Source of the DNA: Chthonomonas sp.
Lineage (GTDB): Bacteria; Armatimonadota; Fimbriimonadia; Fimbriimonadales; Fimbriimonadaceae
Assembly (NCBI GenBank): GCA_016788585.1
Contig: JAEURP010000018.1
Span: 1 to 64,000, forward strand
Length of the DNA: 64,000 nt
Direction of reading: 5' to 3'
Shown one piece after another: positions 4,283-61,798 of this stretch; position 1 is the first letter of the stretch; each line of letters begins with the position of its first letter. The position numbers and the translations under genes are program-made. The notes under the pieces are model-generated. The model did no database searches, was not told the origin of the DNA, and worked only from the letters and a program-made list of their open reading frames with translations.

Positions 4283-4345
4283 GCCATTATTCTGGCATAG
4301 GCCCCGGTTGCTAATTACATCGGCGTTAGTTCATTCTTAGGGTAG

Positions 4346-5353: not shown

Positions 5354-5354
5354 T

Positions 5355-9704: not shown

Positions 9705-9850
9705 AAGCGTATGTCCTCGGACGATTGCGGGGCACCAAAATGATGTCGAATGCCTGCAATGTGGGCGATTTTTACCCCAGATCGGGGTTTGGTATGATGG
9801 GGCTATGCGAAACTGGTCCATTTCCGGTTCGTCCCAAACCTAGAAAAGCA

Positions 9851-11026
9851 ATGCTTGTTCCCGCCCTCTTAGCAGTTTCTGTAGTCTCGCAATCCGGCGC
9901 CGTTGAAGTTCCGTTCATTATTGGCGATAACGCAATCGTCGCGGAGGCCGTGATCAACGGCAAGAAAGTCTCGTGCATGTTCGACACTGGCTTTTCGGGG
10001 ACATTTGTTCTGAATGACAACATTAACATCGGAAAGCCCAGCGGCACGATGACGCTCAGAGACTTTGTGGGATCGTTTGAGGCCACCACCGTGCCCCTAA
10101 AGACGCTTTCGATCGGCAAGCAGAAGATCAACACTACCGAAGATATGGCCGTTGTTCAGCAACCCGGCGGAAGCCAATCGCTGAGCTATAACACGCATGC
10201 CAATGGGATCATGGGGATGGAAGTGATGCAGGACTTCGTCCTTGAAATCAATGTCCAACGAAGCTGCTTCGTCCTCCACCCACGAACGTACGACATCACC
10301 AAGAAGGTGCCAGATAACAAACGCACGTTTCTCGTAAAGATGCTTCCAAAGGGGGTCAACTCAATCGAGCTCACCACGGAAACCAAAGAAGGGAAGAAGC
10401 TCACCTTGGCCCTCGATACCGGTAACTCCTTTTATGCGACAACGCATAAGGATGTCCTTGAGCGTATTGGCCTTTGGACACCTGGGAGAAAGCCCCAATT
10501 CATGAGCCAATCGTTTGTCGCGAGCGGTGCTGTGGATGCGTGGAACTTAGAACTCAAAGATCTTAAGATTTTCGGTGTTCCAACTCCCCAGAGCGTGTGG
10601 AACATCATCGATCGGCCCAGTAGCTCGAGCGATCACGATGGCACGGTCGGATTTCAATTCCTGAAGAATTTCAACATGGTCATCGATATCAAGCGCCGGC
10701 GAGTATGGCTGGAAAACTTCACAGGCAAGACGGCAGAGCCGCCTAAAGCCAGTGCTGGTTTACAAGCCTGGTATTACGCGGAGTACCAAAGATACATCGT
10801 GACGAATGTAACTCCCAGTGGGCCAGCAGAAAAGGCAGGGATTCGGCCAGGCGATATGATCCTAGGGATTAATGGTGAGGACGCCTTGAATATCGGCTAT
10901 CGTGGCTTCGCCGAAAAAATGGAAGGCGAGTTGGACTCGGTCGTGAAGTTTGCAATCTCCCGGCGAGGAGTACTGCAGAACTTCGAAGTGAAGCGGGCAT
11001 ATCTCTTTAATCAGCCAAGTCCCTAA
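9851..11026 (+). CDS. secreted retropepsin-like aspartyl protease with C-terminal PDZ domain
   Basis: 391 residues from the ATG at 9851, which puts a hydrophobic signal-like segment (MLVPALLAVSVVSQSGA) at the N-terminus. An upstream in-frame ATG at 9794 is possible. Two DTG triads are visible, MFDTGFSGTFVL (about residue 43) and LALDTGNSFYAT (about residue 195). This is the pattern of bacterial two-lobed or duplicated retropepsin-like proteases. A PDZ domain follows near residues 290-380 (VTPSGPAEKAGIRPGDMILGINGE). Processing or quality control of envelope proteins is inferred. The last 20 bases overlap the convergent uracil-DNA glycosylase gene. Confidence 0.8.
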   Translation: MLVPALLAVSVVSQSGAVEVPFIIGDNAIVAEAVINGKKVSCMFDTGFSGTFVLNDNINIGKPSGTMTLRDFVGSFEATTVPLKTLSIGKQKINTTEDMAVVQQPGGSQSLSYNTHANGIMGMEVMQDFVLEINVQRSCFVLHPRTYDITKKVPDNKRTFLVKMLPKGVNSIELTTETKEGKKLTLALDTGNSFYATTHKDVLERIGLWTPGRKPQFMSQSFVASGAVDAWNLELKDLKIFGVPTPQSVWNIIDRPSSSSDHDGTVGFQFLKNFNMVIDIKRRRVWLENFTGKTAEPPKASAGLQAWYYAEYQRYIVTNVTPSGPAEKAGIRPGDMILGINGEDALNIGYRGFAEKMEGELDSVVKFAISRRGVLQNFEVKRAYLFNQPSP

Positions 11027-11651
11027 GGCGTTGCATCTGGGACCGTAGCATCTCGCGAGTCAACCGGCCCGTAAAGGTGTTTTGCTGGCTGGGGTGATAA
11101 CAGCCAATGATTCGCCCGCCCGTTTCTGCGCCATGCGCGAAGGGTGGAAGTGGTCGGATCTTCAGGAGTCGATGGGTCTCGCGCCAAGAGATAGCACCGA
11201 GGCATAGAATGCCCTTCCAGTCCCGTCCCTCGAGGAGGGCCGAGAGGTACTCACTGCAATTCCCGATTTCGTCCTTAGAGGGTTTGTTTTCGGGTGGAGC
11301 GCAGTGGGCGACAGCGGTAATGAGCACATTCTGCAAAGTTAGGCCATCGCTGGCATCGGTTGCGTTGGGTTGGCTCGCAAGTCCGATCGCATGAAGCGCA
11401 TCATAAAGCCAATCTCCGCTGCGATCCCCAGTAAACATGCGGCCCGTGCGGTTGGCCCCGTGGGCGGCAGGGGCCAGGCCCACAATGAGTAGCTCGGCGT
11501 TGGGGTCACCGAAGTTGGGAACTGGCTTCCCCCAGTATTCCTGCCCGGCAAAGGCTGCGCGACGTTCCGATGCCTTCGTTTCGCACCAAGTTCGTAACCG
11601 GGGGCAACGCGTACAACCAATAATTTGCTTATTTAGGCTCAGGAGGTTCAC
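11007..11651 (-). CDS. udgB: uracil-DNA glycosylase, family 5 (UdgB)
   Basis: 214 residues with a GTG start at 11651. This base-excision repair enzyme removes uracil, and in this family also some oxidised or deaminated bases, from DNA. Motif 1 is GLAPAAHGANRTGR (58-71), where the Ala/His pair in place of the usual acidic residue is typical of family 5, followed by MFTGDRSGD. Motif 3 is HPSQQNTFTGRLT (186-198). Iron-sulfur cluster ligands are probably C13, C16, C117 and C132. The 3' end overlaps the convergent protease gene by 20 bases. Confidence 0.92.
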   Translation of the reverse strand: MNLLSLNKQIIGCTRCPRLRTWCETKASERRAAFAGQEYWGKPVPNFGDPNAELLIVGLAPAAHGANRTGRMFTGDRSGDWLYDALHAIGLASQPNATDASDGLTLQNVLITAVAHCAPPENKPSKDEIGNCSEYLSALLEGRDWKGILCLGAISWRETHRLLKIRPLPPFAHGAETGGRIIGCYHPSQQNTFTGRLTREMLRSQMQRLRDLAD

Positions 11652-11699
11652 TGCCCTTCTAGCATGTCACCTTCCCGCTCTAGTTGTCGCAGGACCCAT

Positions 11700-11735
11700 A
11701 AAAGAAAAAACGGAGTCGAACTCCGTCCTTCTTTC
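11700..11735. terminator. bidirectional hairpin terminator
   Basis: The stem ACGGAGT/ACTCCGT (11710-11716 with 11720-11726, 3-base loop) is flanked by an A-rich run on the left (AAAGAAAAAA) and a T/C-rich run on the right. It lies between the start of udgB and the start of the FmdB gene. The remaining bases of this gap show nothing clear. Confidence 0.5.
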
Positions 11736-11859
11736 GTTGCATCTCTCAAGAGCCCCTGTTGTCTCAGGGCAGCAATTCAATGCAATGCAATGTATTGTCG
11801 GATGAAATCCTTGTGTGGTTCACCGAATTTGTGCCAGATTGCTATTAGACCTAGTAAGC

Positions 11860-12201
11860 ATGCCGCTCTACGAATACGAACCGACCGACTGGGACTGCCT
11901 GATTTGTAAGGGCAGGTTTGAGGTTTTGCAGGGCGTGAACGAGCCGCATCTCGACGTGTGTCCGACTTGCGGCATGCCTTGTCACAGAATCGTCAGCAAG
12001 ATACAGGTTCGGACAAAGAAGTACCTTGGGGCGGACCAAGCTGGCATGAAGGGATTTACGACGTTCAAGAAGACGCAGAAAGGCGTTTGGGAGAAAGTAG
12101 CCGGGGAAGGAGTCGACGCCATCGTTGGGTCTTCGGCCGATGTTGAGGCGGTTGAAGCAGAAAAGAAGCCAAAGAAGGTGATCAACCTTGATAGCGACTA
12201 G
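11860..12201 (+). CDS. FmdB-type zinc ribbon protein
   Basis: 113 residues. The start ATG at 11860 gives the family's conserved MPLYEYE N-terminus. Two CxxC knuckles form a zinc ribbon (DCLICKGRFEV, about 12-22, and CPTCGMPCHRI, about 34-44). The remainder is lysine-rich and acidic and probably disordered, ending in NLDSD. FmdB-type proteins are widespread putative regulators with no firmly known target. TATTAG ten bases upstream may be a -10 element giving a very short leader. Confidence 0.85.
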   Translation: MPLYEYEPTDWDCLICKGRFEVLQGVNEPHLDVCPTCGMPCHRIVSKIQVRTKKYLGADQAGMKGFTTFKKTQKGVWEKVAGEGVDAIVGSSADVEAVEAEKKPKKVINLDSD

Positions 12202-12263
12202 TAAAAACACTGGTAAAGACAAATAAGTGAACATTCGGCCCGTGATTCGCCCTCTTATTATTC

Positions 12264-14039
12264 GTGCAAGGCAGAGTTTGTTTTAGTTTGCTGGTGGCGT
12301 TGGCGGCAGGTGCCGCCACTTTTGTGGGCCACCATCGGGTCGCGGTAGGTAAGGGTTGCGAACTGGTTGACTTCGCCGCGAAGGAAAAGTTTGCAAAGCA
12401 ACTCGAAAACCGTCCAGAAGCCAGGCGACTGGGACCGGTCGCCGCGTGCTTTGCGGAAGGCACCGATCCGCAGGTCATGGCGGCTTTTCATCAGGCGCTA
12501 CAAGAGGCCCAAGATGGAGCATGGCCAAATCCTGACGAACGATACAACTTAACTAGTCGATGGTCTGGCGCACAGGGTAGCCCCCGCGTAATCCGCTGGA
12601 GCTTCGTTCCAGACGGTCTTTCGATTCCATCTGGGGTTGGCGAGGCCGTCGCGAACAGCACTCTTTTCGCCAGTATGGACGCCAAGTTTAGCGGGAACCG
12701 CGCACTTTGGATCAGCAAATTTGAAGAGGTCTTCAACCGCTGGAGCCAAGTGACTGGATTGACATACGTACGCGTAACCTCTGGGGGCAATGATTGGGAT
12801 GATGGCGCTGATTGGGGGCAGGCAGGTGCAGATGGACTGCGAGGTGATGTTCGGATTTCATCAAAGAACATCGACGGTGCTAGCAGCACCCTCGCCTATA
12901 ACTTCTTCCCATCGAACGGTGATATGGTCATCGACTCTAGCGAGAACTGGGGCAGTTCGACCAACGACTACCGCTTCTTGAGGAACACTCTTTCCCACGA
13001 GCACGGTCACGGCATGGGCCTTCTTCACGTTTGCCCAATCGATTCAACTAAACTCATGGAGCCATATTTGAACACGGGTTTCAACGGTCCTCAGCAGGAT
13101 GATATAAGGGCTGGCACAAGGCATTACGGGGATTCTAATGAACCGGATAATACTGCGGCCACGGCGACGCCAGTGGGAGCCGTGGGCGTTGGAACAAGTG
13201 TGACCTTAGGCACCTATAGTAGCGCTGCAAATTCCTCCACCCTTTCGATTGACGCTGATGGAGAAGAGGATTACTACCAGATCACGACGTCCGGCCCAGT
13301 TAGACTGACTGCAACGGCGACACCAGTCGGATCAAGCTATAACTCGGCGACCGCAAACCCTTGCGGGACTAACGCTGTCATTGCCGCACAATCGCAAGCC
13401 AATTTGGCGATAGAGGTTCAGAATTCGACGGGAACCGTTCTGGCTTCTGCGAGTGGTGGAGGACTTGCAATTGCCGAATCCGTAATCCTCGACATTTCTG
13501 CAGCGGGTACGTACAACGTCCGAGTGTATGAAACCAATAGTCCGACTCAGTCTCAATTGTATCGACTAGATTTACTTGGTGAAGCCATTCCTACAGCGAC
13601 GATCAGCGGTCGAATCACTTTCCTAGATTGGGTAAATCCGAATTCAACCCATCCGGTGATAATCGAAGTCATTCGGATCTCTGATGGCGCCCAGATTGCA
13701 CTAGCAAGCACGACGACTGACTCTGACGGGGACTACACGATTAGCGTTCCGTCGTTGGTGGCTGGAACTGGCTATTTGGTTCGCGTTTCGAGCCTGGTTT
13801 GGCTGCGGAAATCCACACCAACCATCGGCGCAGCAACGATAAGCAACTTGAACTTTAGCCTTTTTAACGGTGACGCGGACCAATCGGGAGAAGTTGACGC
13901 TGCAGACATCGACGATGTCATTGCTGCCTTCGGTGGCACGGGCGTTGGCCCAACCGGTGGCGACCTAGATGGCTCCGGCGAAGTGGATGCTTCCGACATC
14001 GACGTTGCGATTGCCAATTTCGGCCAAATCGACAACTGA
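12264..14039 (+). CDS. secreted matrixin-like metalloprotease with dockerin-like C-terminal module (copy 1)
   Basis: 591 residues with a GTG start and an N-terminal signal peptide (VCFSLLVALAAGAATF). The zinc site HEHGHGMGLLH (H245, H249, H255) followed by KLMEPYL, a Met-turn candidate, places it in the metzincin/M10 group. Residues about 290-440 form a pre-peptidase-C-type beta domain (IDADGEEDYYQI). Residues 445-535 are a carboxypeptidase-regulatory-like beta domain with VWLRKS. The C-terminus holds two EF-hand loops (DADQSGEVDAAD and DLDGSGEVDASD), each followed by ID-VIAxFG-type sequence, ending IANFGQIDN. Extracellular proteolysis is inferred. It is followed by a paralogue with the same layout. 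Confidence 0.88.
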   Translation: MQGRVCFSLLVALAAGAATFVGHHRVAVGKGCELVDFAAKEKFAKQLENRPEARRLGPVAACFAEGTDPQVMAAFHQALQEAQDGAWPNPDERYNLTSRWSGAQGSPRVIRWSFVPDGLSIPSGVGEAVANSTLFASMDAKFSGNRALWISKFEEVFNRWSQVTGLTYVRVTSGGNDWDDGADWGQAGADGLRGDVRISSKNIDGASSTLAYNFFPSNGDMVIDSSENWGSSTNDYRFLRNTLSHEHGHGMGLLHVCPIDSTKLMEPYLNTGFNGPQQDDIRAGTRHYGDSNEPDNTAATATPVGAVGVGTSVTLGTYSSAANSSTLSIDADGEEDYYQITTSGPVRLTATATPVGSSYNSATANPCGTNAVIAAQSQANLAIEVQNSTGTVLASASGGGLAIAESVILDISAAGTYNVRVYETNSPTQSQLYRLDLLGEAIPTATISGRITFLDWVNPNSTHPVIIEVIRISDGAQIALASTTTDSDGDYTISVPSLVAGTGYLVRVSSLVWLRKSTPTIGAATISNLNFSLFNGDADQSGEVDAADIDDVIAAFGGTGVGPTGGDLDGSGEVDASDIDVAIANFGQIDN

Positions 14040-14117
14040 TTTTTGTGCCAGTCTTCAGGTCTTGACCTTGGAGATTGGCACGATAAGTGATAGACTAAAT
14101 AACCTTTGAGATAACTC

Positions 14118-15908
14118 ATGATCCGTCCTGTATTTATTGCCCTTTCTCTTGTCGGGATCGCCACCTCTGGGGTGATTTTCAAATCAAGACCATTCAATTC
14201 CAAGTCAAACTGTGCGCTAGAAGTTGACGCGGCAGCGTACAAGGAATACAAGGCAAAGCTAAAGAACGTCAATCGGGAAATTTACAAGGACCCGATTGCA
14301 GTGTGCTTTGCTCCTGGGACTCCGCCCTCGGTGGTGAATGCCTTTACCCAAGCAATGCAAGCGACTCAGGGGTGGCCCACTCCTTCCCAAAACCAGTACC
14401 AACTTGGGACGCGCTGGACGGGTAACCAGGGCGACCCATTTACCGTTCGATGGAGTTTTGTTCCCGATAACTTACAAATTCCTGGTGGCGCTGGGGAACC
14501 AGACGCTGGAAGTACTTTGTTTGCCAGCATGGATGCCAAGTTTGGCGGTAACCGAGCTGCATGGATCGCGAAGTTCGAAGAAATGTTTGCCCGATGGTCC
14601 GAAGTTTCAGGACTCAAATACGTTCGAGTCCAAAGTGGGACCGATCCATGGGACGACAATGCCGCCTGGGGACAACCGGGTGCCGATGGCTTGCGCGGAG
14701 ATGTCCGAATTGGAATGCATACGATCGACGGACCGAGCGGCATTCTTGGATACAACCAGTTCCCGCAAAACGGAGATATGGTGATCGATGCTGCTGAATC
14801 GTGGGGGCAATCGAACGGCAATTACCGATTCCTATTTAACGTGCTTGCCCATGAACACGGGCATGGCATGGGACTTTTCCACGTGTGCCCGATTCAGGGA
14901 ACGAAGTTGATGGAGCCGTTTTATGATGACGGCTACTATGGACCTCAGCAAGACGACATCCGAGCGAGCCAGCGATTGTATGGTGATAATCGAGAACCGG
15001 ACAATAGCATCGCAACCGCTTCTCTTGTCGGGGCATTCACGCAGACCTCTGATATCACTCTTGGAAATATCATCAATGCGAACAACGCAACGAGTCTGTC
15101 TATCGATGCCAATGGCGAAGAGGACTTCTTCAAGATCACGCTCACGTCGGCAGCTCGATTAACTGCTACGGTAACTCCAGTGGGCACGACTTACCAATCT
15201 GGACCCCAGCAGGGTAACTGCGATACAGGTACATCGACTAACGCACTCAACCAAGCTGACTTGGCGATTGAGATCCAGAACAGCTCAGGAGCGGTCCTAG
15301 CTAGTGCCTCCTCGAACCCATCCAGCCAAGCAGAAGTTGCTGCTGCTGATTTGGTTGCTGCTGGTACTTACTACGTTCGAGTACATGAAACAAATGCTCC
15401 GACCCAGAGCCAACTCTACCGGCTTCGTCTACAGGGTAGCAATGCTTCAGGAATCATCACCGGAACAGTGACATTCCAAGATTGGGTTAGCGCCAACTCG
15501 AGCCTGCCGATTACCGTCGAAGTGCGAAACGCGACGACACAAGCACTGGTCGGAGCCGTAAACACGACAACGAATAGCCTGGGTCAGTACTATGTTGTCA
15601 TTCCTGGAATGTCTGCAAACACGAGCTACAAGGTCTCGGTCAACGGCTTGATGTGGCTACGACGATCTCAAACCGTCACCACACCCGGAACCATCAGTAT
15701 TAGTGGCCTGAATTTCACCGTACCGAACGGCGACACCGACGGCTCTGGAGAGGTTGATGCCTCTGATATCGATGCAGTAATCGCCGCCTTTGGCCTGTCG
15801 ATCGGTGCCCCAGGGTTCCAGTTCGTTCGAGACATCGATGGCTCTGGCGAAGTTGATGCATCTGACATCGACGTCGTCATCGCTAACTTCGGAACGACCG
15901 ACGACTAA
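14118..15908 (+). CDS. secreted matrixin-like metalloprotease with dockerin-like C-terminal module (copy 2)
   Basis: A 596-residue paralogue of the gene 78 bases upstream, with the same domain order. An N-terminal hydrophobic signal segment is followed by zinc motif HEHGHGMGLFH (H245, H249, H255, at the same residue number as copy 1) and KLMEPFYDDG. Then come a pre-peptidase-like domain (IDANGEEDFFKI), a beta domain with MWLRRS and two EF-hand loops (DTDGSGEVDASD and DIDGSGEVDASD), ending IANFGTTDD. The two copies differ throughout, so the duplication is not recent. A strong hairpin follows the stop codon. Confidence 0.88.
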   Translation: MIRPVFIALSLVGIATSGVIFKSRPFNSKSNCALEVDAAAYKEYKAKLKNVNREIYKDPIAVCFAPGTPPSVVNAFTQAMQATQGWPTPSQNQYQLGTRWTGNQGDPFTVRWSFVPDNLQIPGGAGEPDAGSTLFASMDAKFGGNRAAWIAKFEEMFARWSEVSGLKYVRVQSGTDPWDDNAAWGQPGADGLRGDVRIGMHTIDGPSGILGYNQFPQNGDMVIDAAESWGQSNGNYRFLFNVLAHEHGHGMGLFHVCPIQGTKLMEPFYDDGYYGPQQDDIRASQRLYGDNREPDNSIATASLVGAFTQTSDITLGNIINANNATSLSIDANGEEDFFKITLTSAARLTATVTPVGTTYQSGPQQGNCDTGTSTNALNQADLAIEIQNSSGAVLASASSNPSSQAEVAAADLVAAGTYYVRVHETNAPTQSQLYRLRLQGSNASGIITGTVTFQDWVSANSSLPITVEVRNATTQALVGAVNTTTNSLGQYYVVIPGMSANTSYKVSVNGLMWLRRSQTVTTPGTISISGLNFTVPNGDTDGSGEVDASDIDAVIAAFGLSIGAPGFQFVRDIDGSGEVDASDIDVVIANFGTTDD

Positions 15909-15930
15909 GCGTTCGACAAGTTAGTCCCAA

Positions 15931-15962
15931 AACGCGCCCTTCCAGTTTTGGAAGGGCGCGTT
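15931..15962 (+). terminator. hairpin terminator between metalloprotease copy 2 and pruA
   Basis: A perfect 14-bp stem (AACGCGCCCTTCCA with its complement, 15931-15944 and 15949-15962) closes a GTTT tetraloop. No long T-run follows on the plus strand, so termination strength is uncertain, but its position just after the stop codon and before the next start fits a terminator. Confidence 0.6.
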
Positions 15963-15980
15963 GCTGAGTACACTCTCGGT

Positions 15981-17600
15981 ATGAGCTTCGGCACCTTCTC
16001 CTATCCAATCCCCACCAATGAACCAGTATTGGCGTACGGGCCAGGAACGCCTGAGCGGGAACTGCTCAAGAAGGCCCTGGATGAGCATCGAGGCAGGGAA
16101 GTAGAGATCCCGATGGTTATCGGCGGACAAGACGCCAAGAGCGGCAACCTGAAGCGGATGCATCCACCGCATGATATCGCCCACACTCTGGGCCAATTTC
16201 ACGCCGGGGATGCCAGCCATGCGAAGGCAGCCATAGATTCGGCCCTGAAGGCAAAAGAAGACTGGGCGTCCATGTCTTGGGAGAACCGCGCCGGCATCTT
16301 CCTTAAGGCAGCCGACCTGCTTGCGACGAAATATCGCTTCAAAATGAACGCGGCGACAATGCTGGCTCAGAGCAAGAATGCCTATCAGGCCGAGATCGAT
16401 GCCGCCTGCGAGTTGATCGACTTTCTCCGCTTTAACGTGCACTTTTTGAGCGAGATCTACGCGCAGCAGCCCCTTAGCGGGCCAGGAATGCATAACCGGA
16501 TGGAGTACCGCGCGCTTGAGGGATTTGTCCTTGCAGTGACGCCGTTTAACTTTACGGCAATTGGCGGAAACCTGCCAACGAGCGCGGCAATGTGCGGCAA
16601 CGTTGTGGTTTGGAAGCCAGCCAACACTCAAATTTTCAGCGCCGCGCTATTCATGGAGATTCTTCGCGAGGCAGGACTGCCCGATGGCGTTATCAACCTC
16701 GTGTTTGTGGATGGCCCAACTATTGGCGAGGTCTGCTTCAGTCATCCTGAGTTTGCCGGAGTCCATTTCACCGGTTCGACCGGAGTGTTCAACCACATGT
16801 GGAAGACGATTGGGGCAAACGTGGGGAGTTATAGAAGCTACCCTCGAATCGTGGGTGAGACTGGAGGTAAGGACTTCGTGATCGCGCACTCCAGCGCCGA
16901 TCCCGACGTGGTGGCCACGGCATTGCTACGGGGTGCCTTTGAGTATCAGGGTCAAAAGTGTAGCGCCGCGAGTCGAGCTTACATCCCCTCGAACATTGCA
17001 ACTCAGGTCAAGGACAAGCTAGTGGCAGGCATTCAGTCCTTCAAAATGGGACCGCCGGAAGACTTTACAAATTTTATCAATGCAGTGATAGATGAAAAGG
17101 CATTTGATTCCATTGCCGCCTATATCGACGAGGCAAAGGTCAGCGCACACATTTTGGTCGGCGGCGGATACGACAAGTCAAAGGGATTCTTCATCGAGCC
17201 GACCGTTATTGAAACCAATGACCCCAGTTATCGCACCATGTGCGAAGAAATCTTTGGGCCGGTGCTCACTCTTTACGTCTATCCGGAACAGGACTTTGAG
17301 CAAACATTGGAACTCGTTGACTCAACTTCGGGATACGCCCTGACAGGCGCAGTAATCGCACGCGACAGAGCAGCGGTTGAACTTGCCACAGTAAAGTTGA
17401 GAAACGCTGCAGGAAACTTCTACATTAATGACAAGCCAACCGGAGCGGTGGTTGGTCAGCAACCCTTTGGAGGAGCTCGAAAGAGCGGTACGAACGACAA
17501 GGCTGGCTCCATGCTAAACCTTTTCCGCTGGCTCAGCGCTCGAACGATTAAGGAGACCTTCAATCCGGCAGCGGACTACCGATATCCATTTCACCAGTGA
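15981..17600 (+). CDS. pruA: L-glutamate gamma-semialdehyde dehydrogenase (1-pyrroline-5-carboxylate dehydrogenase)
   Basis: 539 residues from the ATG at 15981. An in-frame start at 15948 would lie inside the terminator hairpin and was rejected. The enzyme oxidises glutamate semialdehyde to glutamate with NAD+, the second step of proline catabolism. Visible features are the AVTPFNFTAIGGNLP region, the Rossmann FTGSTGVF turn, the general-base Glu in VGETGGKD (E293) and the catalytic Cys in GQKCSAASR (C327). Length and motifs match the stand-alone eukaryotic/Deinococcus-type P5CDH. No proline dehydrogenase is adjacent. The stop codon overlaps the GTG start of the next gene. Confidence 0.95.
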   Translation: MSFGTFSYPIPTNEPVLAYGPGTPERELLKKALDEHRGREVEIPMVIGGQDAKSGNLKRMHPPHDIAHTLGQFHAGDASHAKAAIDSALKAKEDWASMSWENRAGIFLKAADLLATKYRFKMNAATMLAQSKNAYQAEIDAACELIDFLRFNVHFLSEIYAQQPLSGPGMHNRMEYRALEGFVLAVTPFNFTAIGGNLPTSAAMCGNVVVWKPANTQIFSAALFMEILREAGLPDGVINLVFVDGPTIGEVCFSHPEFAGVHFTGSTGVFNHMWKTIGANVGSYRSYPRIVGETGGKDFVIAHSSADPDVVATALLRGAFEYQGQKCSAASRAYIPSNIATQVKDKLVAGIQSFKMGPPEDFTNFINAVIDEKAFDSIAAYIDEAKVSAHILVGGGYDKSKGFFIEPTVIETNDPSYRTMCEEIFGPVLTLYVYPEQDFEQTLELVDSTSGYALTGAVIARDRAAVELATVKLRNAAGNFYINDKPTGAVVGQQPFGGARKSGTNDKAGSMLNLFRWLSARTIKETFNPAADYRYPFHQ

Positions 17601-19681
17601 GCTTAACGCATCTTCCCCAGGCCAAGGTCAAGAGTTCCCGCCGAACCAAATGGCGCATAGGCGTCCTTTTGCTTATTCATGTTGTAGCGGCAATTCGCAT
17701 TGCAGCCTACAATCGCACAGGCTCGACTATGACACCTGTCGAACCCAGCGAGGCGATGCAAACGCTGGAATCTGGCTTGGTGAACGCCGGCTTCGTTTTC
17801 TTCCTCCTCGCCATTTTGAGCACGGCGCTTCTCGGTCGGTTTTTCTGTGGCTGGGGTTGCCACATCGTGGCACTGCAAGACATCTGCGGGCACCTCATGG
17901 CCAAGCTCGGCTTGAAGCCCAAGCCCTTTCGATCGAGAGTCCTGGTACTGGTCCCAATCTTTGCCTTTCTATATATGTTTGTTTGGCCATCGGTTGTTCG
18001 TTTGTGGGCTAGGCAGCCGATGCCGCCGCTGGTTGCGCACTTTCAGACCGATGACTTCTGGGCGACTTTTCCTCCTCCAGGCATAGCCATCCTTACGTTC
18101 GTAGTATGCGGATTCTTGGCCGTAATCTTCCTCGGAAACAAAGGCTTTTGCACGTATGCCTGCCCTTATGGAGCAGCTTTCTATTTTGCGGATCGGTTCG
18201 CTAAGGGAAGAATCCGAGTGACTGATGCATGCCAAGGTTGCGGCCACTGTACAGCGGTTTGCACCTCAAACGTTCGCGTCCATGAAGAAGTCAAGCTCCA
18301 CAAAATGGTTGTCGACGCAGGCTGCATGAAATGCTTCGATTGCGTTGATGTTTGCCCAACCAACGCCTTGTACTTTGGATTTGGTAAGGGAGTTCAAAAG
18401 CAAAAGCCGAAGCGACAGTTAGACTTCAGTTGGGCCGAGGAACTCCTCATGGTGGGGGCCTTTGCCTTCAGCTTTTATGCCGTCCGTGGCCTTTACGAAC
18501 AGATTCCATTCTTACTCACGCTTGGCTGGTGCGGAATCTTCTCTTACCTATCGGTGACACTGCTTAGACTTTTCACCAAGCCCCAAGTAAGAATGCAACG
18601 CCTTGGCTTGAAGGAGAAGTCGAAGCTCTCGCCCATTGGGGTTGGTTACGTCGTGTTCATGCTGCTTTTGACTTCCTTCACAGTCCATTCGTCCATGGTT
18701 CAGTTTCGGTCGAAAGAGGCGCTCAAAGAGCTCAGTCTGGCTCAGCATATATTCGATAACAAGATCGCTGCAAGAGAAGCGGAAGCAGACGACGCCGCAA
18801 GAGCAAGCTACTCCCATTATCAGGCTGCTTCGGCAATGGCTCTTGTCAAAGTGCCGATTTGGGAAGCCCGAATGGGCATGATCCAGCAATACCTTGGAAG
18901 CGACGAAAAGGCGGAGCAACATTTGAAGGCGGCTCTCGCGGGTGATGCCAACTTGAGAGTAGCAATCGATCACCTCTATAAGCTCTATGAGCGCCAGAAT
19001 CGCTGGTCGGAGGCTGAACCTCTAGCTAAGCGTTGGGTGGAACTTTTCCCCAAGAGCGTTCAAGCTCAGCGCGCCTATGGGCTCTCTCTTTACAGCATGC
19101 AGAAATTGACCGAAGCGGAGCCGTGGCTCCGTTCGGCGCTCTTGGCGGAGAAGCATGATCCGGCTTTACCCGCAGCCCTTGCAATGGTGATTGCGGAGCG
19201 CGGAGACAATGCCGCTGCCGAGCTGATGCTTCGCACCGCACTCTCGGAGCACAAGGACGATCTGCGACTCATGTTTAATCTCGCCGTGGTTCTTTCTAGA
19301 AAGGAGGATACGAGTGAGGCGCTAGGTACCTTAAATCAGCTTGTTGCCCGGTACCCAGACTTCCTAGAGGCTCACCAGTTTAGGGCGCAGCTTGCAACCC
19401 AGATGCAAGATTGGCGAATCGCTTTAGAGTCCTCAAATGCGCTGCGTTATCGGGGCATTGTGCAGCCCCAGTTGGCGGCCCTTTGGGCAGAGAGTGTCGT
19501 GCAGGCCAAGCAGACCAAGGAGGCCTTTGCAGCTCTTACTGGCTCGTTCCCGGATCGGTATTTCAGGGCAGCTCTACTCTATAGGCTTGGCCAGAGGTCT
19601 GAAGCCGAGACCGCTATGAAATCACTGGACAAAGAGCAGAATGCACCTGTGCCTAGGCCCTGGCAGCCACCTACTGAATAG
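17597..19681 (+). CDS. NapH/CcoG-like 4Fe-4S membrane protein fused to TPR repeats
   Basis: 694 residues with a GTG start overlapping the pruA stop (GTGA). Residues 1-370 form a polyferredoxin membrane protein. It has hydrophobic segments near 20-35, 62-80, 113-132 and 162-180, the paired CGWGC (84-88) and CTYACP (185-190) motifs, and two 4Fe-4S ferredoxin motifs with Cys at 212/215/218/222 and 243/246/249/253. Further transmembrane segments lie near 285-360. Residues 375-690 are TPR helices. NapH, CcoG/RdxA and NosR-like proteins move electrons at the membrane, but a TPR tail is not part of those families. Coupling to pruA suggests a role linked to electrons from proline oxidation, but that is inference. 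Confidence 0.82.
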   Translation: MSLTHLPQAKVKSSRRTKWRIGVLLLIHVVAAIRIAAYNRTGSTMTPVEPSEAMQTLESGLVNAGFVFFLLAILSTALLGRFFCGWGCHIVALQDICGHLMAKLGLKPKPFRSRVLVLVPIFAFLYMFVWPSVVRLWARQPMPPLVAHFQTDDFWATFPPPGIAILTFVVCGFLAVIFLGNKGFCTYACPYGAAFYFADRFAKGRIRVTDACQGCGHCTAVCTSNVRVHEEVKLHKMVVDAGCMKCFDCVDVCPTNALYFGFGKGVQKQKPKRQLDFSWAEELLMVGAFAFSFYAVRGLYEQIPFLLTLGWCGIFSYLSVTLLRLFTKPQVRMQRLGLKEKSKLSPIGVGYVVFMLLLTSFTVHSSMVQFRSKEALKELSLAQHIFDNKIAAREAEADDAARASYSHYQAASAMALVKVPIWEARMGMIQQYLGSDEKAEQHLKAALAGDANLRVAIDHLYKLYERQNRWSEAEPLAKRWVELFPKSVQAQRAYGLSLYSMQKLTEAEPWLRSALLAEKHDPALPAALAMVIAERGDNAAAELMLRTALSEHKDDLRLMFNLAVVLSRKEDTSEALGTLNQLVARYPDFLEAHQFRAQLATQMQDWRIALESSNALRYRGIVQPQLAALWAESVVQAKQTKEAFAALTGSFPDRYFRAALLYRLGQRSEAETAMKSLDKEQNAPVPRPWQPPTE

Positions 19682-21323
19682 CGCCAGGGTTGACCACATG
19701 CGCCAGCGTGACGGGTTGACCATTGATGAGGTTGCCCTGATTCACCCAACTTGCTGTGGAAGAAGTACTGAAGTTTGCGATGTACTGACCTGGGAGATTG
19801 AAGACATTGTCTCTAAGGTCTAGATTCCAACGCCCACCTTCACTCGGGCCGAAGAAAATGGAGGCACTGTACTCATAAACATTCTGGAAATTGCAGTTTG
19901 TGATGGAGATATTGGGAGAATTCGTTGTGCGATTGAACTTCAAGTTGCCAATTAATTCATACAGCACCTTGAAAGTCCAGTTTCGAATGGTCAATGATCC
20001 CAAAACTGAAGTTCCATCTGGAGCTGTGGACATTTGGAAGTTATAGCCGCTAGTTGGCGTGCTGATGGTAACTCCATTCTCAAGTGTGAGAGAGCGCACA
20101 TAGCTGGTCCCACTGGGATACCCAGTTCCCCCCGTTTGGGTTGTGGTGTAGATTTGGGGAGTTGTTATCGTCTGACCCGGATAACGCCCTTTGATCAGGA
20201 CATTTGATGCATTGCCATGGACCGCAATCGAATGAAGGGCGGTGCAGTCTTCGAGGGTTACGTCTTCGACTCCTCGTCGCCAACTGGAGTTGGCAATCGT
20301 AAACAGATTGCCAAGAACCCTGCGATAGGTCAGTCGGCGCTCGCCTTGACCATGCCCTCCGTCGAAGTTCAGTGTCGATCCCGTGCAATCCTCTACCAAG
20401 CCATCCATCGTGCCGCTTTGAAAAAGCACACCCGTACGGGTAGTTGAGAAAACAGAGTTTCGAACGGTAACGAATCGACTTCCTCCAAACTCAATCCCGT
20501 AGCCCATTACTTCCAGGTTTCCCTGGGAAACCCGAGCACGATTGATCGTCACGCCTTTCGACATCTGCACCGAGATGCCGGAGGTCCCGAAGTTCGAAAC
20601 GGAAATGTCATCGATATAGACGCCAGATGAGAGGCCCACAATTAGCACCTTGGCGGCTTTGGTGCCATCAATTGTGGAAGCTCCATCGAGGACAAGATTT
20701 CGAAGTGTGATCCGTTGGCAAACCTGGGGCGATACAGTTTGGGGCAAGTTGTCAGCCTCAACAAGCCGTAACTCGGCATTGTCAAATGGCCTTCCTACAG
20801 GTCCGTCGAGTGTCGCGACGTTTCCAGAAACGTTTGTGACTCTTACAAGTTCACGTTTGAAGTAGTTTGTTGAGACCCCATCGGCTGTCCGTACAATATC
20901 GTTTAGCGAGTGAGTACCGATAATTGCGTACCAGCCCTTCTCCAGAGCTTGGCCCGCAGTCCTCGTAACAGTCGTCGCGCCCTCGGGCACCGGACTGACC
21001 GTAGTCGATGCACCCGTAAAGGCGGTGTTGTCATAGGCATGCTTGCCATGGGTGCCGACAATGATTAGAGGAAAGTCGACGGTCGTGTTACGGACAAGCC
21101 TGGTCCCAGTTTGCCCCATTAACGTGAAGTTCTTCGTCCCACCCATTACTCGCAAAGAAGTCGTGAGATTGATTCGACCAGGAGGGAGCGTATAGGACGT
21201 TGCGCCCGAGTTAACCGCCGCTTGCAAAGCGGTCTGGACATCAGCGCCCTCATAAACCGTTTGTGCCCTCGCGACGCATGCGAAGGCAATTGTTAGCAGG
21301 GGCAATGCACGCAAAAACTCCAT
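19671..21323 (-). CDS. secreted right-handed beta-helix (pectate-lyase-fold) protein
   Basis: 550 residues from the ATG at 21323, which gives a good signal peptide (LRALPLLTIAFACVARA). A TTG at 21347 is a poorer alternative. The N-terminus (VQTALQAAVNSGATSYTLPPG) and the many short beta repeats with Asn/Ser ladders (about residues 200-500) are typical of pectate-lyase-like or phage-tailspike-like beta-helices. No catalytic residues could be assigned, so the substrate is unknown. The 3' end overlaps the convergent polyferredoxin-TPR gene by 11 bases. Confidence 0.8.
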   Translation of the reverse strand: MEFLRALPLLTIAFACVARAQTVYEGADVQTALQAAVNSGATSYTLPPGRINLTTSLRVMGGTKNFTLMGQTGTRLVRNTTVDFPLIIVGTHGKHAYDNTAFTGASTTVSPVPEGATTVTRTAGQALEKGWYAIIGTHSLNDIVRTADGVSTNYFKRELVRVTNVSGNVATLDGPVGRPFDNAELRLVEADNLPQTVSPQVCQRITLRNLVLDGASTIDGTKAAKVLIVGLSSGVYIDDISVSNFGTSGISVQMSKGVTINRARVSQGNLEVMGYGIEFGGSRFVTVRNSVFSTTRTGVLFQSGTMDGLVEDCTGSTLNFDGGHGQGERRLTYRRVLGNLFTIANSSWRRGVEDVTLEDCTALHSIAVHGNASNVLIKGRYPGQTITTPQIYTTTQTGGTGYPSGTSYVRSLTLENGVTISTPTSGYNFQMSTAPDGTSVLGSLTIRNWTFKVLYELIGNLKFNRTTNSPNISITNCNFQNVYEYSASIFFGPSEGGRWNLDLRDNVFNLPGQYIANFSTSSTASWVNQGNLINGQPVTLAHVVNPGAIQ

Positions 21324-49273: not shown

Positions 49274-51919
49274 ATGAAAAGAGCAATATTCGTTTGTGCG
49301 CTTGCGTTTGGAACCGGAAGAGGCGCCTTTGGACAACTCAAGGGTGATCAGTACATTGCCTGTCCTTTGCCCGTAACGAACTCTCGCTCTCTCTCTCAAT
49401 TGGCCCTTACAATTGATCTTGTCGACCAATTGCCCCTCTCTAAGACATGGATTGTTCGCGCCAAACGAGGAGAAACCGGCGAAGCCATGGCAAGGCGCCT
49501 TCGAAGATCCGGCCAATTCTCATTTGTCACCAAGGATAGGGTGCTCGCTCCTGCTGTTAGTCCAAACGATCCTCTTTTCAACCAGCAATGGCACTTGGCG
49601 CAGATCTCCGCCCCACGAGCCTGGGACTTCGTAATTGGCGCCCAGGCTCCCATCGTGGCGTTTGTAGATACCGGTGTTGACGTCAACCATCCGGACCTGA
49701 TCCCAAACCTCATCCCTGGTTACAACTCCGTTCTAGATCAGTATCAGTCAAATGGCGCCACGGTGAGTGACAATACGGCCTCCTTTGCTCACGGAACCTT
49801 TGTAGCCGGCGTTATTTCCGCCAAAGGGAACAATGGAATAGGGGTTTCTGGCGTAGGGTGGAATATTCGGCTCCTACCAGTCAAGGCGAGCCACGACCCT
49901 AGCGGAGATGCTTTTGAGTCCGATCTCCTGCAAGGAGCTGAGGTGGCCGCTACCATGGGAGCAAAAGTAGTCAATGTCAGCTATTCAGGAGTCGAAGAGC
50001 CAGCAGTTCAAGTAACTGGTGCCGCCCTTAGGGCAAACGGTGTAAATCTCGTTTGGGCCGCTGGGAATGACGGTGTAAACCTCTCGGGATTTGACTGGCC
50101 GGACGTCACCGTCGTTGGAGCAACGCAATCTAATGATGTGAAGTCTGGATTTTCAAACTTTGGCCTTGCAGTTGACTGCTTTGCGCCGGGGTCTGCAATT
50201 CGCTCGACTTACAGGAATGGGCTGTACACAGTTGGCGACGGTACCAGCTTTGCCGCGCCAGCCGTTTCAGCGGCCCTCGCATTGATGGCCGAACGACAAC
50301 CGGCCCTTACGCCGGCTCAAAGAGAGAATCAGATATTGCGGCGTTGCCGTGATTTAGGAGCGACTGGAAATGACGTCTACTGGGGATGGGGTCGTGTAAA
50401 TCTAGCGTCAGCGATTGAAAGCCCAATCCGCAAGTATCACCTTTCGATTGTTGCGACTCCCTTCCCGGATTCGAACACGTGGGGTACATGGATGGATGAC
50501 CAAGGAAACTTGCTTATGGAGCTTGCTACTCCATTAGAAGGCTCCCACCATTACCGTGCCTTGAATGGGATGCTGACTGGTCCGGTTCCGCCGCCCTATC
50601 CAATCCCAAGCCCGGTTTCTGCACCCATTACCGATGTGAGTAACAATGGACTGGCTGTAGGATTTGCCTACGATCAATCGACTAGTAATGGCTTTTGGGG
50701 AAGCCTTGGTGGTTCGCAAGGATTCACGAACTACCCGATCGTCAATGGTTATTCTTGGGTTCAACCTTTGGGAGTGAACGACCTAGGCGATTCTGTCGGG
50801 CGATACGCCCACGTGGGCGACTTCAGCGCAGAAGTCGGTTTTATTCGAAGGGCCAATGGAACGACGTCCTTCCCGGCGCCGGTCGCCACCTTTGGGCGCA
50901 ATTCCCTCTACGGCATCAATGATTTGGGGCAATGTGTGGGCCAGTTCTTCGGACCAACCCCGCTTTACACTGACGGAACGGCTCTCATCCAATTGCCCGT
51001 TCAGAACGGCTTTAATCTCGGTCACGCGAATCGGATAAACAACAATGGTTTCATCGTTGGCTCAGTTTCAGCAAGCAACACCAATTTCCACGCCGTTTGG
51101 TGGCAGCTTGGGCAACTATCTGACATGTTCATGTTCGACTCGCCCGCAAATTGCTTTGCCGACGACGTCAATGATCGCGGAGAAGTTGTCGGCCGCGAAT
51201 ACACGTCTCCGGCCCTTGCTGCGACATACGCTTACGTTTTCGAAGGTCACTCCAAAGGACGGCTTCAAGATCTGCTTACCGCGCCTATGCCGGTAGGAAT
51301 TGTGAGAATCGGCGGGTCGCCAACGATTACGAGGAGTGGTGTGATCACGGCCTCGGCCTTTACCGAGAATGGTCGCGCCCTGCCTTGCTATGCCACCCCC
51401 ATCGACTCATCAACGATGACAGTATCGGTCGGACAAATGGGAAGTTCTCCAGTCTATGTGGGTTCGATCCCACCCTCGCTATCAGTAGAGTTTGCTACGC
51501 CCGATGGAGTCGACATACCCGGAACTGCATATCAAGCGTCGTATTCCGGCGTTACCGGGCGAGCCAACCTCGTCGTTCCTCTCTCGGTGACAGGGGATTT
51601 CAGACTTCGGCTACGGCTTAACTCCTCAGTCGTACCCGGGTATTCAGGTTGCCCTTACTTGTCACGGCTTTATCCGCCCTTGGCAGAACCTCCGCTACCT
51701 TTCGACACGTACACAACTCCCTTGATTGAGATGTATCCAGGTGACGTCAATGGTTCAGGCGAGATTGATGCGGCTGACATCGATGGGGTTATCGAACAAT
51801 TTGGGACAGTATCTGGTGGACCGGGATGGTTGGGTACCGGTGATGCCGATGGCTCTTCCGAAGTCGACGCAGGCGATATCGACTTAGTGATTGCCAATTT
51901 TGGGCTAGCGGCCGAGTAA
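49274..51919 (+). CDS. secreted subtilisin-like protease with HAF repeats and dockerin-like tail
   Basis: 881 residues. Signal peptide [19 protein letters not shown] is followed by an S8 protease domain with D132 ([12 protein letters not shown]), H173 ([11 protein letters not shown]) and S325 (GDGTSFAAP). Residues about 450-680 carry at least four HAF-type repeats of the form (V/I)N(D/N)xGxxVG ([55 protein letters not shown]), predicted to fold as a propeller-like beta structure. The last 60 residues are two EF-hand loops ([24 protein letters not shown]), ending IANFGLAAE. An extracellular protease is inferred, possibly attached through the C-terminal module. Confidence 0.88.
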
Positions 51920-59216: not shown

Positions 59217-60659
59217 TTAGACGTCGTCCGTACCACCGAAGTTGGCAATGACGATGTCGATATCTGCTGCGTCGACTTCACCATTAGCGTCAGTGTCAGA
59301 GTTAATGTCGCTCGTCGAACCAAAGTCAGCAATCACTTGGTCGATGTCAGCCGCGTCAACCTCGCCCGATTCATCGACGTCGCCGTTTTGCATCATGACA
59401 TTACCAACCGCTTGATTGGAGCCAGTCAATGAAACCGCAGTATGCCGCCTAAGGAACGAGCTACCATTCCAAACGATAGTAGCGGCGCCCGTTGCAGCGG
59501 CGGGAACATCGACATCGAACGAGGTATTTGGCGAGTTGGCGACAACGGAACCGCTTGCAAGAACGGTCGTTCCCTGCATTACGTCGTAGCTGATGTTTCT
59601 GGCGAAACCGAACGTACCAACCGTATCACCCAGCGAGAGGGTGCCCGTGACATGCTGGTCCGGAGCCGTCATTGTCACGCGAAGGTTATCGACCAGCATA
59701 AAGTTAAGGCCAGTTGAGTCAACTGCGGCATTGCCGTTACTGTCCATCATGGCAACCAAGAGGTTTGGATTCGCTGAGACGGTGCAGAAGGTCAAGTCCA
59801 CCGTTCCAATAAGGACATCATCAATGTGAAATGTTAAGGTGTCGCCGGTCTTCGTAACTTTCCAAACTCGCCACTTGAAACCGACTGATCCGGGGTTGGT
59901 AGTACCCGTCTGGCTCGGATAATTGAGCGCTTGATCCGCCGGCAAGGCAATCGAAGGATAAGCTGTCGACCAATAGGAATGGGCGCTATTAAGGTTGGCA
60001 CCCGTGTCACCCGAGGCATAGACGCCGGACACGACGTTAGTGCTCGAGTTACCAGCTCCATAGTAGTAGCCGTTTGCAACGGTGAACCGACTGTCTTTTG
60101 CGTAGATTCGCCAGTCAACCGCGGAGCCACCGTCGAGAGTGGTCGCAAGGAAGACGCTGTCTCGACCGCTGAGGCTGTTGGCATTCGTTTGGGCTACAGT
60201 GCCTTCGGTGCCCCATCCCATTGCAGCGAGTTGAGTCGTTCCGCTACCACCAACTGGGCCGGGACCGAGGTAGTTGAGCCAGACGTCTGCTGTCATGACG
60301 AAGTTGCCCGTAAAGACCTGACCGATTGCCGAGGTGCTGAGGCCGCTGACGATGGAAGCGGATGCGTTGTTTACCAGATTCGTTCGAAGCAATAGTCCCT
60401 TCGTGGTTCCACCTGTCGAATTTGGTGCGCTGGGGATCTTGAATCCGGGAATGGTGATAGGGTTGCCAAAGATGTCGAAACCCGAGCGATCGTTGAAATA
60501 GTCAAGCGAAAAGTTTGCTTCGTGATCGGTTTGACCGTCGGAGGTTAAGACAATCCAATTTGCTGAAGTGTCTGTATCGAAGTCCTCAAAAAAGTCGGCC
60601 CACGCTACCGAAGTGATGCCGAGTGCGGCGCCAAACGCCAAAAGTGATAGTGCCTTCAT
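59217..60659 (-). CDS. secreted protein with dockerin-like tail, paralogue of the next gene
   Basis: 480 residues. The signal peptide (KALSLLAFGAALGITSVAWA) is followed by an ectodomain of about 330 residues beginning FFEDFDTDTSANW and containing FVMTADVWLNYLGPG and QLAAMGWGTEGT. It resembles a lectin/laminin-G-type jelly roll. Then come a beta domain with SSFLRRHTAVSL and two EF-hand loops (DVDESGEVDAAD, DTDANGEVDAAD), ending IANFGGTDDV. The neighbouring upstream gene has the same ectodomain but a PEP-CTERM tail. A hairpin-containing leader lies upstream of the start. Confidence 0.82.
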   Translation of the reverse strand: MKALSLLAFGAALGITSVAWADFFEDFDTDTSANWIVLTSDGQTDHEANFSLDYFNDRSGFDIFGNPITIPGFKIPSAPNSTGGTTKGLLLRTNLVNNASASIVSGLSTSAIGQVFTGNFVMTADVWLNYLGPGPVGGSGTTQLAAMGWGTEGTVAQTNANSLSGRDSVFLATTLDGGSAVDWRIYAKDSRFTVANGYYYGAGNSSTNVVSGVYASGDTGANLNSAHSYWSTAYPSIALPADQALNYPSQTGTTNPGSVGFKWRVWKVTKTGDTLTFHIDDVLIGTVDLTFCTVSANPNLLVAMMDSNGNAAVDSTGLNFMLVDNLRVTMTAPDQHVTGTLSLGDTVGTFGFARNISYDVMQGTTVLASGSVVANSPNTSFDVDVPAAATGAATIVWNGSSFLRRHTAVSLTGSNQAVGNVMMQNGDVDESGEVDAADIDQVIADFGSTSDINSDTDANGEVDAADIDIVIANFGGTDDV

Positions 60660-60671
60660 TGTGCTTTAACC

Positions 60672-60703
60672 TGCGCCGACAATGGCGCACGTTCATTCTA
60701 TAG
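60672..60703 (-). promoter_or_regulatory. promoter element CTATAGAAT plus leader hairpin
   Basis: On the minus strand, CTATAGAAT (60703-60695) is followed after five bases by the hairpin TGCGCC-ATTGTC-GGCGCA (60689-60672), then 12 bases to the ATG. The next gene has the same arrangement. Confidence 0.5.
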
Positions 60704-60753
60704 TAAATTCTAGCTTGCCTGCCTCGTAAGAATACTGGTATTCAACAGAGAAA

Positions 60754-60775
60754 GCCCCCACTTTTCAGAGGGGGC
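60754..60775 (-). terminator. terminator of the PEP-CTERM paralogue
   Basis: GCCCCC and GGGGGC form a stem around a 10-base loop, about 20 bases after the stop codon on the minus strand, followed by TTTCTCTG. Confidence 0.5.
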
Positions 60776-60794
60776 CATTTTTGAACGGATGGAG

Positions 60795-61751
60795 TTACTT
60801 TCGACGTCGTCGAAGTAGAGCTGCAACCCCCAAGCCGAGGGCGGCCATTGAGCCAGGCTCAGGAACCACCTGAACGCGGACATTGTCAACGATCATCGTG
60901 TTCAGACCGTGTGGATCGCCGGTCGTGCTGCTCCCATTGGTATCAGCCATTCCGATAAGAATGTTCTGAGCTGCCGCGGTTGTGACGGTGGTTAGGTCAA
61001 CCGTCGCAATCAACAGGTTGTCGATGGAATATGAAAGGTTGTTTCCGCTCTTTTCAACGCGCCATGTACGCCACTTGAAGGCAGTTTCGCCTGCGTCAGT
61101 GGTGCCTGATTGACTAGGAAACAAACTAAGTTGGGCAGAAGGAGCACTGACGGGTGCAAATGCGGTCGTGTAGTAACTGGCCGAATTATTGATGGCTCCA
61201 CCAGGCGCTGCATAAACGGGACTGCCTGCAACATAGCTTGTGAGCCCGGCGGCATTATTGGAATAGGCGCGGTAGTCGCTTGCGGATCCGCCATCCAATG
61301 TTGTACCGAAGAACACACTGTCTCTCTGAGCGAGCGAGTTCCCAAGCCACTGTGCGGTTGTTCCCGCGGTACCCCATCCCATGACACCGAGTTGCGTAGA
61401 ACCGCTACCGCCAGGTCCGAGTGGTCCAACATAATTAAGCCACACGCTTGCCGTCATGACAAAGTCGGTCGTAAATGACTGACCATTGGGCGAGACGCTC
61501 AATCCACTCAGGACGCCGCCAGCGATGTTCGTCTGAAGTCGCAACCCACGCGTAGTGCCGCCTGAACCATTGGCGCTATCAATACCCAACTGGGAGTAGT
61601 CGTAGTTAAAGGTCGCGATGTTGTTCGCGTTGTTGCCCGATTTGAGGACGGTCCACATGCTGGTGGTGTCCGTATCAAAGTCCTCAAAGAATGCCGAGGC
61701 CATCGGCGAGACGACGCATAGCGTCGCCAGAAGTAGTAATCCTCGATTCAT
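60795..61751 (-). CDS. PEP-CTERM protein, paralogue of the preceding dockerin-tail protein
   Basis: 318 residues from the ATG at 61751, giving signal peptide NRGLLLLATLCVVSPMASA. The ectodomain begins FFEDFDTDTTSMW and has FVMTASVWLNYVGPLG and QLGVMGWGTAGT, clearly homologous to the protein encoded at 59217-60659. It ends with VPEPGSMAALGLGVAALLRR plus RRK instead of the EF-hand tail. Jelly-roll, carbohydrate- or surface-binding function is inferred only. Confidence 0.84.
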   Translation of the reverse strand: MNRGLLLLATLCVVSPMASAFFEDFDTDTTSMWTVLKSGNNANNIATFNYDYSQLGIDSANGSGGTTRGLRLQTNIAGGVLSGLSVSPNGQSFTTDFVMTASVWLNYVGPLGPGGSGSTQLGVMGWGTAGTTAQWLGNSLAQRDSVFFGTTLDGGSASDYRAYSNNAAGLTSYVAGSPVYAAPGGAINNSASYYTTAFAPVSAPSAQLSLFPSQSGTTDAGETAFKWRTWRVEKSGNNLSYSIDNLLIATVDLTTVTTAAAQNILIGMADTNGSSTTGDPHGLNTMIVDNVRVQVVPEPGSMAALGLGVAALLRRRRK

Positions 61752-61765
61752 CGTACAGTCCAATC

Positions 61766-61798
61766 GCGCCAACAAGGGCGCATGACCATATTCTATAG
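61766..61798 (-). promoter_or_regulatory. promoter element CTATAGAAT plus leader hairpin
   Basis: On the minus strand, CTATAGAAT (61798-61790) is followed after eight bases by GCGCC-CTTGTT-GGCGC (61781-61766), then the ATG at 61751. The loops and stems match the leader at 60672-60703. Confidence 0.5.

Follow-up and report, generated by a model that had tools for sequence, protein, structure and literature searches.

Neighbouring paralogues in a Fimbriimonadaceae genome share a lectin-like ectodomain but end in different C-terminal tails, PEP-CTERM and X-module-dockerin

The PEP-CTERM signal was described as a modular protein suffix by Haft et al. 2006 (PMC1569441). Homologous cargo proteins with alternative sorting tails (GlyGly-CTERM, LPXTG, and PEP-CTERM) were found across species by Haft and Varghese 2011 (PMC3237569), and owing to this precedent tail swapping is already known as a principle. 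The pair analysed here likewise belongs to one cargo family with different C-terminal sorting signals. However, the earlier case concerns different species and transmembrane-type signals, whereas the present proteins are neighbouring paralogues in one genome, the direction of the change is resolved, and a transmembrane signal appears to have been replaced by a folded calcium-loop dyad. Such a dyad is known from Clostridia as the cellulosomal type II X-module-dockerin (XDoc) of CipA, CipB, and ScaA (PDB 2b59, 5m0y, and 4wi0). Our literature search, which was not exhaustive, found no description of the replacement of PEP-CTERM by X-module-dockerin in neighbouring paralogues or of a cohesin-less XDoc expansion in this class, and no paper naming PEP-CTERM and dockerin together.

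The source assembly, G000, is a 2.38-Mb genome in 27 contigs, and the window, the whole stretch of 64,000 nucleotides that was analysed, lies on its contig C2. The genes of P0001 and P0002 are adjacent and in the same orientation, at the positions reported in the initial annotation. Their features are as follows.

59217..60659, minus strand: P0001, 480 aa, secreted; Sec-type leader, lectin-like ectodomain, and XDoc tail
59220..59390, minus strand: dockerin-like calcium-loop pair of P0001, DVDESGEVDAAD and DTDANGEVDAAD, up to the C-terminus
59391..59651, minus strand: X-module-like seven-strand beta-sandwich of P0001, first ~87 residues of the swapped tail (AlphaFold2 pLDDT 97.7; PDB matches)
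59670..60593, minus strand: P0001 ectodomain, homologous to that of P0002 (profile match 1-309)
60597..60659, minus strand: Sec-type leader of P0001, MKALSLLAFGAALGITSVAWA, read by eye
60673..60688, minus strand: palindrome GCGCCATTGTCGGCGC in the 5' leader of the P0001 gene, within an 18-base palindrome starting 30 bases before the start codon
60695..60702, minus strand: -10-like TATAGAAT before P0001 (sequence, alignment)
60795..61751, minus strand: P0002, 318 aa from ATG, secreted; Sec-type leader, lectin-like ectodomain, and PEP-CTERM tail
60801..60866, minus strand: PEP-CTERM exosortase signal of P0002
60867..61691, minus strand: P0002 ectodomain, concanavalin-like / GH16-like jelly roll (pLDDT 90.9)
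61766..61781, minus strand: palindrome GCGCCCTTGTTGGCGC, at the equivalent position before P0002
61790..61797, minus strand: -10-like TATAGAAT before P0002 (sequence, alignment)

The two proteins had been annotated as neighbouring paralogues sharing one ectodomain, and the comparison bore this out. The ectodomains align with 45% identity and 61% positives over 339 columns (~310 residues; BLASTP E=4e-77), far above chance, which rules out a merely superficial similarity. The alignment starts in the leader and extends to residues ~331 (P0001) and ~292 (P0002), and homology breaks off directly after '(M/I)(L/I)VDN(L/V)RV', at the tail boundary, so that the exact breakpoint is located. No Pfam family matched the ectodomain, and P0001 and P0002 are its only copies in G000. 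The folds nearest to the P0002 ectodomain model were concanavalin-like lectins and GH16 glucanases, with best E of about 6e-7 to 1e-6 and TM-scores of only 0.36-0.55; the term lectin-like jelly roll is a statement on the predicted fold, not on catalysis or sugar binding. Among named relatives, the Fimbriimonadaceae MAGs SJ800 and SJ46 are nearest; identity to P0002 is 74%.

P0002 starts with the leader MNRGLLLLATLCVVSPMASA, a signal peptide by eye-reading, and continues after the breakpoint as VPEPGSMAALGLGVAALLRRRRK. This C-terminus has the PEP motif, hydrophobic helix, and basic cluster of PEP-CTERM and scored 28.7 bits with the Pfam PEP-CTERM model (cut-off 20.7). G000 encodes one exosortase (E 8e-51) with the conserved Cys, Arg, and His in the motifs PCSG, NGLR, and HDFHDYSG. 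An EpsI-like reading frame comes next, and genes for a UDP-sugar dehydrogenase and a glycosyltransferase, which are of EPS type and were named by sequence reading, lie nearby. There are 42 PEP-CTERM matches in G000, 40 of them above the curated cut-off. P0002 thus resembles the described PEP-CTERM/exosortase system (PMC1569441) in having the signal, one exosortase beside an EpsI-like frame and EPS-type genes, and ~40 substrates. P0001 differs in that the signal is wholly absent and a large folded module stands instead. An exosortase is present in 99 of the 113 genomes of the class. Loss of the exosortase, as an event that freed XDoc genomes from PEP-CTERM, was considered and rejected: genome G077 apparently has no exosortase, yet at least one of its proteins ends in PEP-CTERM, and for this reason the apparent absence is probably an assembly gap.

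The tail of P0001 comprises ~144 residues (337-480), modelled by AlphaFold2 as a sandwich of seven strands with two calcium-loop helices after it. The initial annotation was right that the two tails differ, but its EF-hand module corresponds to no more than the final third of what was exchanged, the rest being the beta-sandwich. The last ~55 residues matched Dockerin_1 weakly, with 17.6 bits in the full-length protein and 22.9 bits when the tail alone was used (Pfam cut-off 22.9); this profile matched 45 of 64 tails from G000 at E below 0.01. A profile built from the 64 tails matched PDB chains of cellulosomal X-module-dockerins (2b59_B, E=4e-6; also 3kcp, 4wi0, 5g5d, and 4u3s). In a fold search with the P0001 tail, the ten best PDB matches were all type II X-dockerins (E 5e-7 to 6e-6, TM-score 0.61-0.72). 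By sequence profile and fold, the P0001 tail is an X-module-dockerin dyad, and it resembles the clostridial ones in having a beta-sandwich X-module before a C-terminal dockerin with two calcium loops. In this member of the Fimbriimonadaceae, both loops follow the consensus D-x-D-x-S-G-E-V-D-A-A-D, and D1, D3, S5, E7, D9, and D12 are nearly invariant among the 64 tails. Mean entropy across these tails was 1.10 bits in the dockerin part and 2.61 bits in the X-module. Since the dockerin part is far better conserved, a single partner may be bound by all XDoc tails. Elsewhere in the window, a subtilisin-like protease (49274-51919) has a dockerin-like end with no recognisable X-module upstream, and its relatives L111, L112, and L113 show the same variant.

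A search with the P0001 tail gave 81 matches in G000, or about 80 XDoc tails; the G000 inventories rest on searches and fetched stretches. XDoc-type tails occur patchily, in 56 of the 113 genomes of the class. The exosortase system is therefore general in the class, and the XDoc tail is an overlay abundant in some genera only. XDoc tails are common in some genomes that have no member of the window's family (for example, G044 and G080), and in G078 only a PEP copy of the family is found, indicating that the tail swap is not compulsory.

Cohesin (PF00963) was found neither in G000 nor, above the cut-off, in any of the 113 genomes, and the control genome, Methanosarcina acetivorans, was positive. 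A cohesin hidden below the cut-off was also sought and discarded: only short sub-threshold matches appeared, in 12 genomes (best E 0.009) and none in G000. Because the defining cohesin was searched for and not found, we do not class the P0001 tail as part of a cellulosome; this genome departs from the cellulosomal case in showing neither cohesin nor scaffoldin and in carrying ~80 copies on varied cargo. Some bacterial genomes encode dockerins but no cohesin that can be recognised, a feature for which there is no explanation. In G000, an orphan dockerin tail sits precisely where the other copy has a known sorting signal, in pairs matched for ectodomain, leader, and promoter, and its near-invariant face on ~80 proteins could serve as bait for the missing receptor.

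The XDoc copy might instead be built into a soluble or EPS-embedded, cellulosome-like complex on an undiscovered scaffold, the PEP copy being the cell-bound form. Dockerins are assembly modules, and ~80 varied proteins with nearly the same dockerin face would fit such a complex. We nevertheless regard it as rather unlikely, as no cohesin or scaffoldin turned up in G000 or the 113 genomes and the closest structures are type II dyads, whose cohesin-dockerin pairs serve mostly for surface attachment in clostridia (PMC12484212). We favour attachment of both proteins to the envelope. P0002 would cross the inner membrane by Sec and be held there by its C-terminal helix, and the single exosortase would then cut it and pass it to the envelope or exopolysaccharide. 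P0001, also exported by Sec, would be held non-covalently, and probably in a calcium-dependent manner, through its dockerin face. All XDoc proteins of the cell would share one receptor, other than a recognisable PF00963 cohesin.

The direction and age of the swap were inferred from the homologues of the ectodomain, which we found in 24 of the 113 genomes. Outside the genus of the window, 21 homologues were read, and all but one (G045b, a truncated second copy) end in PEP-CTERM, a few residues past '(V/I)DNVxV'; the homologue in G071 is PEP-tailed. The adjacent XDoc/PEP pair is limited to G000, G048, and G049, all three of the window's genus. The three XDoc copies group in one clade of the tree (100/100), which is sister to the PEP copies of the same genomes, and the support for this sister relation is moderate (94/85). 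Both sets are nested among PEP-only sequences, and the XDoc stem is the longer one (0.48 vs 0.17). As the outgroup homologues are PEP-tailed and the XDoc copies form one nested clade, the PEP-CTERM tail is most likely ancestral. The XDoc tail was most likely gained once, on one duplicate, before the three species split. The tail swapping on one cargo that had been proposed is thus upheld, with PEP-CTERM to XDoc as its direction. The second copy in G045 (L161/L162, contig C72), which belongs to another, otherwise PEP-tailed clade, has a non-PEP, sandwich-like tail cut by the contig end and is perhaps an independent second tail change.

The 5' regions of the pair were also compared. In all six genes of the genus (in G000, G048, and G049), a -10-like box is present and a palindrome or stem-loop begins 29-30 bases upstream of the start codon; both copies of the pair keep TATAGAAT/TATACACT and the stem-loop at equal distance to the start. 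Because the box and the stem-loop position are kept in all six, the duplication probably included the 5' end of the gene, and replacement of the 3' end is likelier than insertion of the ectodomain into an XDoc gene. The palindrome GCGCC-N-TTGT-N-GGCGC occurs exactly before both genes and at no other site in the window. A LacI-type operator was considered and not adopted, as the stem varies in a paired way in the sister species with its position kept, and in other family members this position is often taken by stem-loops of unrelated sequence. The palindrome is as likely to be a 5'-leader stem-loop as an operator. In many PEP and XDoc genes for surface proteins, a stem-loop separates the -10-like box from the start codon; a rough control gave a stem-loop in 35 of 400 random windows.

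Further tail-swapped pairs were sought in an all-against-all comparison of 74 XDoc and 43 PEP ectodomains of G000. Besides the window's family, three more with cross-tail paralogues were found, the four having mutually unrelated ectodomains and best E of 2e-86 to 5e-25; a weaker fifth is a metalloprotease family (E 5e-7). Since many, indeed most, of the tandem paralogues in G000 hold to a single tail type, tail swaps are the exception. Family 2 (contig C4, adjacent genes) has the same history as the window's family: its XDoc/PEP pair occurs only in G000, G048, and G049, its XDoc clade is supported at 100/100, and ten other genomes have single PEP copies. Several tail changes have occurred across the class in family 3, a repeat protein with a poorly resolved tree. 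The junction of one XDoc member (L040) reads QPVPRHD, against QPVPEPG in the PEP member, and may perhaps be a remnant of a former PEP-CTERM signal. Members of families 3 and 4 in G071 (L202), G013 (L235), and G015 (L213) have neither a PEP-CTERM nor an XDoc tail, or are tailless.

Six genomes from four genera have family 4, and in each a PEP-tailed and an otherwise-tailed copy are found together. The non-PEP tail is of XDoc or dockerin type in five of them, and G013 has a third kind; the tree was read without its duplicate partial rows (names ending in '2'). In G000, G049, and G079, which represent two genera, the two copies flank a common cluster of ~16 kb, as read at three loci (L236, contig C15 of G000, 2545-20000; L238 in G049; L239 in G079). 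According to a Pfam run on the G000 cluster only, it encodes a LacI-family regulator, a pseudopilin-like protein, two ABC transporters, an ADP-ribosylglycohydrolase, a GH127-like enzyme, an HpcH/HpaI aldolase, CitF, and a PfkB kinase. The 18-bp palindrome TGACCAAACATTTGGTCA (two differences at most) precedes the PEP gene, the LacI gene, and the XDoc gene in all three genomes, near a -10 box; 0.01 occurrences per locus were expected by chance. The simplest reading is that one LacI regulon would make both tailed forms simultaneously. This suggests, at the sequence level, shared control of the PEP and XDoc copies for family 4, but not for the window pair.

The source of the new tail may lie in the XDoc genes themselves. 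XDoc tails share near-identical DNA, and several G000 contigs (C11, C13, C19, C20, and C24) end inside such tails. The stretches at the contig ends are 100% identical over 66 to 141 bases, and the ends of C20 and C24 are 97% identical over 196 bases, which suggests that the tail was recently copied or underwent gene conversion. At the DNA level, P0001 shares 82% identity with these tails in its dockerin end. Homologous recombination between XDoc tails, for which the near-identical stretches offer many partners, would be a plausible route of the swap in P0001.

Taken together, it is probable that a gene for a PEP-CTERM lectin-like protein was duplicated and that one copy was given an XDoc tail, so that the same domain is placed in two ways. 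A tandem duplication of this envelope protein, of concanavalin/GH16 fold, would have occurred at the stem of the Fimbriimonadaceae genus. One duplicate would then have lost its ~24-residue PEP-CTERM and received the ~144-residue XDoc dyad, with leader, promoter, and ectodomain retained. The homology, breakpoint, direction, and conservation in three assemblies are the part of this explanation that the sequences support. As a result, the cell would have the same binding domain in two places, or in two attachment states, at once. Each pair can be regarded as a natural controlled experiment with one cargo and two tails in one cell; because the cargo is the same within the pair, a difference in localisation or partner could largely be assigned to the tail.

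The initial annotation had regarded the tails as interchangeable solutions to surface placement, in which case they would be redundant and the tail of each copy would be a matter of neutral drift. It is true that one ectodomain family tolerates either tail and that at least four families changed tail. However, in families 1 (the window's) and 2 the tail has almost never changed in the outgroups, most G000 tandem paralogues keep one tail type, and both copies are retained in 3/3 genomes with the window pair and 6/6 for family 4. Because the family-4 copies are kept together and, in the three loci read, share one operator-like palindrome with the LacI gene, redundant tails are unlikely. The retention pattern fits two non-equivalent placements used together, with functional equivalence less favoured, and the tails seem to give versions of a single domain that are deployed together but placed differently. 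Beyond this, we tentatively suggest that XDoc might be, in this class, a second, parallel C-terminal surface-attachment system with a single receptor that is no recognisable cohesin, spread by repeated replacement of PEP-CTERM on duplicates and used in co-controlled double deployment.

It is very unlikely that the XDoc tail is an export signal recognised by a secretion machine of the outer membrane, as the type IX C-terminal domain is, and not a binding module. Its place at the extreme C-terminus of diverse cargo in a genus with PEP-CTERM would suit such a signal. On the other hand, the tail matches XDoc dyads in fold as well as in sequence, its two calcium loops are conserved, which is not required of an export signal, and an NCBIfam scan of P0001 gave no family, the type IX sorting models (type A/B) included. 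An assembly chimera, conceivable in a 27-contig genome with several contigs ending inside XDoc repeats, can be dismissed together with superficial similarity (E=4e-77), as the identical pair architecture in two other assemblies of the genus rules out assembly error as the origin of the swap.

The window contains a further tandem of metalloprotease-like paralogues (12264-14039 and 14118-15908), which are 59% identical and both carry an XDoc tail. A weaker homologue of these proteins elsewhere in G000 (L058) ends in PEP-CTERM.
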